Made by a program: the position numbers and the translations under genes
NCBI GenBank assembly: GCA_903916195.1
Contig: CAIWVP010000079.1
Coordinates: 1-37,995, forward strand
Length of the DNA: 37,995 nt
Source: an uncultured Verrucomicrobiota bacterium
GTDB lineage: Bacteria; Verrucomicrobiota; Verrucomicrobiia; Limisphaerales; UBA9464
Direction: 5' to 3'
In this document: positions 4,335-9,202 of the stretch, piece by piece
Layout: every line of letters begins with the position of its first letter
How positions within the stretch are numbered: position 1 is the stretch's first letter
The notes under the pieces: generated by a model
Databases searched by the model: none
The model's input: only the letters and a program-made list of their open reading frames with translations
Told to the model about the DNA's origin: nothing

Positions 4335-6206
4335 TCACTTCGGCTGCTCGACGACGGTGAGCGTGTCGATGGCGACGTGGGGCAGCGTCTGCTTCGTGCC
4401 ACCGGGCCAGAGGATCTCGACGGATTCCACCTTGTCGATCGTGCCGAGCCCGAAGGTCACCGGAAGTTCGCTCGCGCTGAGGTAGCTCTTCGAGGTCATC
4501 ACCTCGCGCCACTGCGACTGGCCCCCCGCGGTGATCTTCACGGTCGCGCCCAGTGCGTCGTGGTTCGAGCGGGTGCCGACGAGCTTGAGCCGGACGTGGT
4601 GGTTGCCGAGGGGGCGGTCGTTGCGCAGGAGCATCGGCGGGCCGGCCACCTGGGTCGCGATGATGTCGAGGTCGCCGTCGCCGTCGATGTCGGCGTAGGC
4701 GCTCCCCCGACCGACCGCGGGCTTGAAGAGGTCCGGACCGGTCTGTGCGGTGGTCGCGGTGACGAAGCCGGCGTCGCCCGCGTTCCAGAACAACTGCGCC
4801 GGCTGACGATATCGCTGTCCGTGCTGGACCTTGGAGATCTCCTCCTCCAGGTGCCCGTTGATGCTCAGCAGGTCGGCGCGGCCGTCGAGGTCGTAGTCGA
4901 AGAAGAAGATGCCGAACTTGAGCGGGTCGCGGCTGGGTCCGCCGATGCCCCAGCTGAGGCTCTCGTCGGAGAAGAGCGGATGCCCGGACCCGCCACCGGC
5001 GGGTGACGGCTGGGCGACGCAGAGCGCGGTCATCTCGTTGGCGAAGTTGCCGATGGCGAAGCCGATCTTGCCGTCCTGGGTGAACCGGCAGGCGTCGATG
5101 CCCATCGCGCCGCGGGTGTTGCCGTAGTTGTCGAAGGCGAACCCGCTCAGCGCCCCGATCTCCTCGAAGGTCCCGTCGCGCCGGTTGCGGAACATCAGGT
5201 TCTGCACGGTGTCGTTCGCCACCGCGAGGTCCAGCCAGCCGTCGCCGTCCACGTCGATGACCGCGACGCCGAGCGTCTTGGCGATGGGCACGCCGGTGCC
5301 GGGGTTCTTGATCTGGACGCCGGCGGCGGCGGAGATGTCGGTGAACTTCCCTCCGCCGTCGTTGCGGTAGAGATGCGGGAACGCGCCTTGGAAGTTCATC
5401 GGCGGGCCGTAGGCGCGGTGCGTGCCGTCGATCTTGTAGCCGACCTGCGCGTCGATCTCCGGCGACCAGCGGACGTAGCTGGCGACGTAGAGGTCGAGGT
5501 CACCGTCGTTGTCCATGTCGAAGAACACGGCGGCGGTGCTCCAGTCCTTCGCATCGCCGCCGACGCCGGCCGCCGCGGTGACATCGGTGAACTTCCCGCC
5601 GCCGTCGTTGTGGAAGAGCCGCGCACCGCCGACCGTGGTGATGAGCACGTCGGGCCTGCCATCGTTGTCGTGGTCGCCCGTGGCCACGCCCATGCCGTAG
5701 AGCGGCACGTCGAGACCGGAGCCGGCGGTGACATCCGTGAACTTGCCGTGGCCGTCGTTCTTGTAGAGCGCGGCGGTCGCCGGCTTGGCCCCGGGCGCGA
5801 GCTTGCCCGGCCACTGGGTGGAGTTGACGAAGAGCAGATCCGGCGCGCCGTCGCCGTCGAAATCGAGGAAGGCGACCCCGCCGCCCATCGTCTCGGGCAG
5901 CAGTTTATCGCCATAAGCGCCGTTCTCATGGCGGAAGGTGATCCCGGCGGACGCGGTGATGTCGGTGAACCGCGCATCCGGGACCTTGGCCACCGGACGG
6001 TCGGCGGCCACGGGAGCCGCGAGGCGGGTGACCTGGGCCTTGGCCGGGGCCGGTTTGCTGCGCAGCACGAAGAAGGCGCCGCCGCCGAGCACGGCGAGCG
6101 CCACGATCGCGATGACGGAGTTGCGCAGGCCGCGACCGACGGCGTCGTCGTCGAGCGGCGCCAACTCTTCATCATCATCGCCCGGGGGCTGGGAGGGGTT
6201 GTTCAT
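4335..6206 (-). CDS. CRTAC1-family FG-GAP/VCBS repeat protein with UnbV domain
   Basis: A 623-residue protein with an acidic cytoplasmic N-terminus, one membrane anchor (about residues 30-48) and a long exported part. At least six calcium-binding-like FG-GAP/VCBS loops are visible, e.g. 'FLDFDGDGAPDLLFV', 'GDHDNDGRPDVLI', 'FDMDNDGDLDLYVA', 'IDVDGDGWLDLAVA', 'FDYDLDGRADLL' and 'ADIDGDGDLDIIA', predicting an integrin-like beta-propeller. The C-terminus has the ASPIC/UnbV pattern 'NHHVRLKLVGTRSNHDALGA'. The biochemical role of bacterial CRTAC1 proteins is unknown. The gene starts 74 bases after the multiheme cytochrome gene on the same strand, so the two are probably one operon and may act together at the outer face of the membrane. 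Confidence 0.9.
   Translation of the reverse strand: MNNPSQPPGDDDEELAPLDDDAVGRGLRNSVIAIVALAVLGGGAFFVLRSKPAPAKAQVTRLAAPVAADRPVAKVPDARFTDITASAGITFRHENGAYGDKLLPETMGGGVAFLDFDGDGAPDLLFVNSTQWPGKLAPGAKPATAALYKNDGHGKFTDVTAGSGLDVPLYGMGVATGDHDNDGRPDVLITTVGGARLFHNDGGGKFTDVTAAAGVGGDAKDWSTAAVFFDMDNDGDLDLYVASYVRWSPEIDAQVGYKIDGTHRAYGPPMNFQGAFPHLYRNDGGGKFTDISAAAGVQIKNPGTGVPIAKTLGVAVIDVDGDGWLDLAVANDTVQNLMFRNRRDGTFEEIGALSGFAFDNYGNTRGAMGIDACRFTQDGKIGFAIGNFANEMTALCVAQPSPAGGGSGHPLFSDESLSWGIGGPSRDPLKFGIFFFDYDLDGRADLLSINGHLEEEISKVQHGQRYRQPAQLFWNAGDAGFVTATTAQTGPDLFKPAVGRGSAYADIDGDGDLDIIATQVAGPPMLLRNDRPLGNHHVRLKLVGTRSNHDALGATVKITAGGQSQWREVMTSKSYLSASELPVTFGLGTIDKVESVEILWPGGTKQTLPHVAIDTLTVVEQPK

Positions 6207-9202: not shown

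Follow-up and report, generated by a model that had tools for sequence, protein, structure and literature searches.

The 37,995 bp stretch analysed here, hereafter the window (contig CAIWVP010000079.1 of assembly GCA_903916195.1, from an uncultured Verrucomicrobiota bacterium of the order Limisphaerales), carries a pair of minus-strand genes, P1 and P2, that probably encode a membrane-bound electron-transfer unit. P1, which probably carries seven haems, joins a five-helix membrane bundle, five c-type haem motifs, a beta domain and a tetratricopeptide repeat (TPR) domain on one chain, and P2 is a membrane-anchored propeller protein of the CRTAC1 type. The data as a whole are best explained by a model where P1 is a quinol dehydrogenase of the inner membrane with a new architecture, docked to P2 through its TPR domain, and we favour this model with moderate confidence. 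The original prediction, drawn up from the letters of the window, had described at this place a fusion of a membrane bundle, five c haems and TPR repeats, followed by an anchored FG-GAP/UnbV protein, and both genes were found there with those parts.

6281..9202, minus strand: P1, 973 aa; fusion of a diheme-b-like membrane bundle, pentahaem c module, beta domain and TPR domain
4335..6206, minus strand: P2, 623 aa; membrane-anchored FG-GAP propeller with UnbV_ASPIC (CRTAC1 type), assigned from its open reading frame (ORF) and Pfam, with no fold model

P2 lies downstream of P1 on the minus strand, with 74 bp between the P1 stop and the P2 start on checking the ORFs, and P1 is a single-copy gene in its own genome. 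An AlphaFold2 model of full-length P1, built from a 65-row alignment, reached a mean predicted local distance difference test score (pLDDT) of 87.1 and a predicted template modelling score (pTM) of 0.83; searches with this model were dominated by TPR rows, and families missing from them are uninformative. Judged from sequence comparison, the full-length layout is more than a chance assembly, and recurs among homologues that, by the names of their records, come from at least three phyla.

Histidine pairs in the membrane bundle

The membrane helices of P1 span residues 21-53, 64-95, 101-123, 135-161 and 168-189 in the AlphaFold2 model. Lys and Arg are plentiful at the N-terminus and in the loops that follow helices 2 and 4, which would place the N-terminus in the cytoplasm and everything beyond helix 5 in the periplasm, a topology that agrees with the periplasmic location required by c haems.

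8588..9202, minus strand: five-helix membrane bundle, P1 residues 1-205 (AlphaFold2, alignment and bundle-only fold)
8984..8986, minus strand: H73, helix 2, proposed haem b ligand, putatively on the periplasmic side; invariant in 73 rows
8930..8932, minus strand: H91, helix 2, proposed haem b ligand, putatively on the cytoplasmic side; invariant in 73 rows
8768..8770, minus strand: H145, helix 4, proposed haem b ligand, putatively on the periplasmic side; invariant in 73 rows
8726..8728, minus strand: H159, helix 4, proposed haem b ligand, putatively on the cytoplasmic side; invariant in 73 rows

Two well-spaced pairs of membrane histidines had been foreseen, and they correspond to H73/H91 (18 residues apart) and H145/H159 (14 apart). 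With 100 degrees per residue, the two members of a pair are offset by 0 and -40 degrees, respectively, so that each pair points to roughly the same side of its helix. Only eight bundle columns, H73, G77, P83, H91, G107, G121, H145 and H159, were invariant in a 73-row alignment of P1, 64 relatives of the same subtype (type A) and eight type B/C paralogues that share 17-23% identity with P1 in this region. The bundle holds seven histidines among its 205 residues, and the chance of finding at least four of them in eight invariant columns is about 3e-5, assuming independent sites. The same four were kept in 80 of 81 aligned rows, the remaining row (L098) being gapped there at a contig end, and were also invariant across 28 rows of types A-D.

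When a model of the bundle alone (pLDDT 92.2) was realigned structurally, the top 15 rows were all haem-b proteins, of only five kinds: cytochrome b6 (10 entries; best 2e74, Z 11.1, 137 aligned residues, root-mean-square deviation (rmsd) 3.5), superoxide oxidase (5oc0, Z 10.9), HyaC (6g94, Z 10.7, and 4gd3), bc1 cytochrome b (8q1b, Z 10.6) and FdnI (1kqf, Z 9.8). Together, the invariant histidines in the alignments and the fold similarity of the model make haem b in the P1 bundle probable. On the haem b pocket, suggested as a check on the original prediction, nothing spoke against it: the bundle resembles haem-b bundles, at Z values that are only suggestive, and keeps its four histidines, which are putative haem ligands.

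A pentahaem module of the c552 fold

P1 has exactly five CxxCH motifs, beginning at residues 232, 282, 315, 386 and 437, and these are followed by a beta domain.

8495..8509, minus strand: haem c motif 1, CLECH (232-236); CX4CH in type B/C paralogues
8345..8359, minus strand: haem c motif 2, CAGCH (282-286), motif scan
8246..8260, minus strand: haem c motif 3, CTACH (315-319), motif scan
8033..8047, minus strand: haem c motif 4, CSTCH (386-390), motif scan
7880..7894, minus strand: haem c motif 5, CAECH (437-441), motif scan
7142..7717, minus strand: beta domain of the pentahaem-cytochrome fold, P1 496-687, from the model; contains invariant H543 (7574-7576)

The Pfam family Cytochrome_C554 matched residues 232-319 with 37.7 bits (cut-off 20.8). 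In structural comparison, residues 222-687 gave Z 15.2 (rmsd 3.7) against 5ze8, the pentahaem cytochrome c552 of T. tepidum, with 348 of 385 residues aligned. A profile built from 28 haem domains also retrieved 5ze8 (E 3.2e-12), as well as cytochrome c554 (1.1e-4) and MccSep (1.4e-3); in the 5ze8 profile match, motifs 1-3 were significant, and motif 5 and the beta domain appeared in the same order as sub-threshold pieces. As modelled, then, P1 contains a module of the pentahaem c552/ExtKL-family fold.

Besides the five motifs, H248, H371, H466 and H543 are invariant in 28 rows of types A-D, as are K391 and M442, and a further four histidines, H410, H464, H586 and H626, are conserved in 13 of 13 type A rows. 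Four invariant non-motif histidines for five haems imply that at least one distal ligand varies between subtypes or is a residue other than His.

Linkage of P1 and P2

Gene order was surveyed in the best 80 of 142 P1 loci, a sample in which close relatives weigh heavily. A P2-type CRTAC1 gene lies directly downstream of P1 on the same strand in 61 of the 80, with a median estimated gap of 45 bp. Five loci have less than 1 kb of contig left downstream of P1, and three carry a CRTAC1 gene only upstream and on the other strand (distant relatives of 106-110 bits in L078 and L083, P2-type pieces in L085). Sixteen further genomes were searched for P2 at E up to 1e-60, namely those of the three loci just named, those of 11 with no CRTAC1 gene seen, and those of L080 and L099. 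All 16 held a P2-type gene, full length in 15 (51-62% identity, 612-848 bits) and in pieces in G322 (49-53%); other CRTAC1 matches in these genomes were mostly 31-41% identical, and some genomes had two P2-type genes.

Among 144 genomes of the order, each at least 90% complete, P1 was present in 53 and P2 in 54, with both in 52, neither in 89 and three discordant. Co-occurrence in relatives, which had been put forward as a check on the pairing, was therefore borne out by these counts and by the gene order in the surveyed loci. Of the discordant genomes, G047 has P1 only, as a fragment at a contig end, and G241 and G253 have P2 only. In the latter two the gene adjoins a LytTR two-component system, elsewhere the site of a second P2 copy, so that these genes are probably that second copy. 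In G041 the P1 and P2 matches overlap by 4 bp. G208, counted among the 53, has only a P1 piece and a type C paralogue. At L147 (G208:C494), a P1 frame of only 143 aa passes from the beginning of the bundle straight to the surroundings of H248 and is followed by a full-length CRTAC1 frame; it may be either a degenerate copy or an assembly error.

The second P2-like CRTAC1 gene adjoins a LytS-type histidine kinase and a LytTR regulator (L163, L164 and L170-L176; L173 and L172 seem to lie on the same contigs as L062 and L064, respectively). In several genomes its product matches P2 only from about residue 60-75, without the anchor part, and in several the gene lies 2-7 kb upstream of P1. The second copy in P1's own genome (G000:C68:3582-5414, 60% identity) is cut on its upstream side by a contig end.

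A fixed larger operon was rejected, as ORF clustering in the 80 loci gave only P1 and CRTAC1 nearly throughout; some small minus-strand families occurred in 14-26 loci, with examples that overlap P1 or P2, and all other families, not each of them identified, occurred in 11 loci or fewer. The genes that flank the pair in the window appear unrelated to it. They include a PSCyt2/PSD1 (DUF1549/DUF1553) protein at 3-2195 on the minus strand, which runs off the left end of the window, a PfkB kinase, a glycosyltransferase and, at 9256-10611, a likely histidyl-tRNA synthetase.

TPR domains on either subunit

6404..7078, minus strand: TPR superhelix, P1 709-933 (AlphaFold2, PDB matches)
6063..6125, minus strand: single transmembrane anchor of P2, residues 28-48 (hydropathy)
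4359..4556, minus strand: UnbV_ASPIC domain of P2, residues 551-616 (Pfam)

All Pfam TPR families fell below their cut-offs in P1, yet residues 709-933 fold as a TPR superhelix, with best PDB matches that include MamA and designed TPRs. P2 scored above the Pfam cut-offs for both FG-GAP_3 (125 bits) and UnbV_ASPIC (69 bits), and has six DxDxDG loops.

Three further cytochrome subtypes, B, C and D, were recognised in 18 chosen loci, a non-random sample. These paralogous systems keep the bundle and the five haem sites, usually with a CRTAC1 neighbour, which belongs to branches other than P2 (about 160-420 bits to P2). Type B cytochromes (L141-L145, L153 and L165) have the same four bundle histidines where aligned, a first motif of CX4CH followed by four CxxCH, and no TPR domain. 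Their CRTAC1 neighbours instead extend beyond UnbV by a tail of 285-339 aa in three complete cases and of at least 248 aa in two that are cut by the end of the stretch (the L142 protein is cut before the tail region, and L153 shows no downstream gene); Pfam TPRs were found on the type B CRTAC1 protein in all three complete cases, L141, L145 and L165. Type C (L146, L148, L151, L152 and L166) has a tail-less CRTAC1 neighbour in 5 of 5 loci, and no Pfam TPR was found in the two type C cytochromes that were scanned; in L166 the next gene carries TPR and FG-GAP domains. Type D (L156-L161) combines bundle, five CxxCH motifs and TPR on the cytochrome, with an adjoining tail-less CRTAC1 in 4 of 6 loci and none seen in L158 and L159.

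A domain that is carried by either of two neighbouring proteins is a classic sign of an interface role. The TPR domain sits on the cytochrome in types A and D and on the CRTAC1 protein in type B, which argues for a TPR-CRTAC1 interface. The argument is no more than circumstantial, since these genomes are full of TPR and CRTAC1 sequences (43 stretches match P2 in P1's own genome). The suggestion that the CRTAC1 propeller is the partner of the TPR domain gains independent but circumstantial support from type B, in which a cytochrome lacking TPR has a TPR-bearing neighbour.

Some type B and D pairs have further neighbours. Peripla_BP_6 genes adjoin the pairs at L145:1179-3951 (type B), L157:7556-10135 and L160:2647-4899 (type D), assigned by Pfam for L145 and L160 and by similarity for L157, and a search of other loci and of the window found no relative of this gene. 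ABC substrate-binding genes have been noted near CRTAC1 and hydrazine-synthase-like genes in the available part of one report (PMC12758564). A monohaem cytochrome c of the SoxA/TsdA type lies directly after the type D cytochrome/CRTAC1 pair at L160:9618-10046, and is a possible electron partner in that lineage.

Distribution among phyla and respiratory context

Strong P1 matches were found in 51 of 144 genomes within the order (>1200 bits, one truncated), and in a phylum-wide draw of 144 genomes only in P1's own genome and G199. Outside the phylum, 32 of 148 genomes from the planctomycetes, the phylum of the L080 genome, had strong matches (>900 bits, one cut), as did 9 of 149 from the phylum of the L099 genome (Thermoanaerobaculia; >1400 bits), with two more at about 670 bits. 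We take the Thermoanaerobaculia to belong to the Acidobacteriota. This spread is patchy, and may reflect gene transfer between phyla.

The haem-copper oxidase subunit COX1 was present in all 53 P1-bearing genomes of the order versus 77 of the 91 others (Fisher 0.002, uncorrected). An aerobic chain is therefore available to the P1 unit, which appears to be an addition to oxidase-bearing genomes and not a marker of strict anaerobes, and a purely extracellular-respiration reading is weakened. An NrfD-family protein was found in 51 of the 53, versus 81 of the 91 others. P1 as a replacement for alternative complex III was rejected on this count, in a family that covers more than complex III.

Proposed electron route and alternatives

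In the model that we favour, quinol would be oxidised at a bundle holding two b haems, one at H73/H145 near the periplasm and one at H91/H159 near the cytoplasm. Electrons would travel by way of both b haems to the periplasmic face, pass into the fused pentahaem module with its c552/ExtKL fold, and from there reach a periplasmic or cell-surface redox partner near the TPR-propeller head. The TPR arm would dock the unit to the separately anchored P2 propeller, which may position the complex or its partner. The model builds on the layout, the invariant histidines, the fold matches, the gene pairing and the occurrence of TPR on either subunit, and from these we infer haem b occupancy, the quinol donor, the direction of electron flow and the TPR-propeller contact. 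A broader proposal, to which we lean a little less than halfway, is that the pair represents an undescribed class of respiratory module, in which a diheme b bundle is fused to a pentahaem module of the c552 type and a TPR arm, carried by either subunit, clamps a CRTAC1 protein, and which would serve as an extra quinol outlet in oxidase-bearing Verrucomicrobiota, Planctomycetota and, from one record, Acidobacteriota-type bacteria.

A number of observations weigh against the quinol dehydrogenase model. The bundle matches no Pfam or NCBIfam cytochrome b family (Pfam at E up to 1), and its first Foldseek match by E-value, FdnI, was weak (E 0.11). The realignment Z values of 9.8-11.1 lie below about 13, the level under which the aligner warns that helical bundles may share only a common arrangement, and from rank 16 onward the list includes designed and coiled-coil proteins. 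The usual spacing of such histidines is 13-15 residues, which the 18 on helix 2 exceed, and P1 showed no recognisable quinone site. As regards the pairing, adjacency is not universal and can be lost: 11 of the 80 loci show no CRTAC1 gene within the examined DNA, and about 144 kb separate the two genes in G231, a genome in one contig. The Fisher p of 1e-35 for co-occurrence is given without kinship correction and is inflated by shared ancestry. Among neighbours that are only partly annotated, none that recurs constantly was recognisable as an acceptor gene, and the presence of NrfD in 51 of 53 genomes means that P1 is probably not their sole quinol oxidase.

The alternative that survives best, although we consider it unlikely, is that P1 runs backwards, passing electrons from a periplasmic or extracellular donor to quinone. 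The b/c fusions CbcL, MtoC and MtrH occur in iron reducers and iron oxidisers alike, with no feature that tells the direction in the portion of the source available (PMC6295460), and the oxidase subunit present in 53 of 53 P1-bearing genomes of the order could drain the quinol pool so formed; on the other side, the partly annotated surroundings of the pair showed no dehydrogenase gene that recurs constantly.

Still less probable, in our view, is that P1 acts as a terminal reductase or oxidase in its own right, in which one c haem with a free or weakly held distal site would turn over a small molecule. The set of non-motif histidines invariant in 28 rows is one short of five, as such an enzyme would have it, and the related MccSep, going by entry names, has a selenocysteine in a pentahaem fold. 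Against this reading, residue 325 of MccSep, which the U325A entry name implies is Sec in the wild-type protein, aligns with Thr549 of P1, and the other 27 rows have Thr or Pro there. The vacant site could moreover be filled in type A by H410, H464, H586 or H626, and K391 and M442 are invariant too. Finally, the bundle might be a mere anchor for a pentahaem relay, its four histidines being metal-binding or structural, as the missing cytochrome b family match and a structural similarity in the range of a possibly common arrangement would allow, but this is improbable because two same-face pairs of invariant histidines beside invariant Gly and Pro would be a strange coincidence, and haem-b proteins head the list of structural neighbours.

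If the quinol dehydrogenase model is true, P1 and P2 would offer quinone-pool electrons a further, widespread exit in phyla of poorly known respiratory wiring. For freshwater Verrucomicrobia, a porin-multihaem route across the outer membrane has been proposed, with the inner-membrane step drawn only as 'ET in IM' in the part of the paper available (PMC5615132). One branch of the bacterial CRTAC1/UnbV proteins would also gain a biochemical role: these propellers are abundant yet unexplained, and the tie of one branch to one cytochrome makes function testable. In P1, a pentahaem fold of soluble and extracellular cytochromes is built into a membrane protein.

Comparison with known systems

No description of the P1 fusion or of the P1/P2 pair was found in open-licence papers, and one may exist elsewhere. 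In its haem domain P1 resembles the pentahaem family of cable-bacteria proteins (sPHC and lPHC), ExtKL and Gsu2801, which has an Ig-like domain and structural homology to c552 in the available text (PMC11976967); P1 likewise has five c haem motifs and then a beta domain of the c552 fold. The members described there lack a haem-b bundle or TPR fusion, although fusions with truncated haemoglobin domains occur among them. The P1 haem domain falls far below the NCBIfam cut-off for ExtKL (NF040886; 21.0 bits versus 250), and with Thr549 in place of selenocysteine 325 it is not a MccSep-type selenoprotein.

The bundle is similar to cytochrome b6 in having two histidines each on helices 2 and 4, where cytochrome b6 has its haem ligands, and in its four-helix fold, although Z values of 9.8-11.1 are suggestive only. 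P1 differs from b6/bc1 cytochrome b, FdnI, HyaC and superoxide oxidase in that it has no family sequence match, its fifth helix leads into the c module and its histidine spacing is 18/14. Membership of the cytochrome b/b6 (bc1) family was rejected, since none of its Pfam models matched at E up to 1, as was the NapC/NirT (CymA) family, given five helices versus a single N-terminal helix and a PF03264 score of 11.9 bits of the 24.1 needed.

P2 belongs to the CRTAC1/ASPIC-UnbV family by its FG-GAP_3 and UnbV_ASPIC scores, but P2-type proteins form a distinct branch (49-62% identity versus mostly 31-41% for others) that is tied to P1. A CRTAC1 gene also clusters with genes for homologues of hydrazine synthase subunits, according to the part of the report available (PMC12758564). 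Those subunits are unrelated to the P1 pair, and the parallel is no more than a hint that periplasmic haem proteins repeatedly have CRTAC1 propellers next to them.

CbcL, MtoC and MtrH are b/c fusions proposed to exchange electrons between the quinone pool and the periplasm, and CbcL has an N-terminal multihaem c domain and about six C-terminal helices, as far as the accessible text goes (PMC6295460). P1 likewise joins a membrane domain to a multihaem c domain on one chain, and its invariant histidines and fold make that membrane domain a putative diheme-b one. The layout of CbcL is not that of P1, in which five helices come first (21-189) and the haem motifs after (232-441), and the c module of P1 has the pentahaem c552 fold, with a TPR domain and a CRTAC1 partner in addition. 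Homologues of the CbcL family listed in the same partial source include four from Verrucomicrobia and two from Planctomycetes (PMC6295460), which may or may not include P1-type proteins. By analogy, CbcL-type fusions are the functionally nearest relatives of P1, with the domain order reversed and modules that differ.
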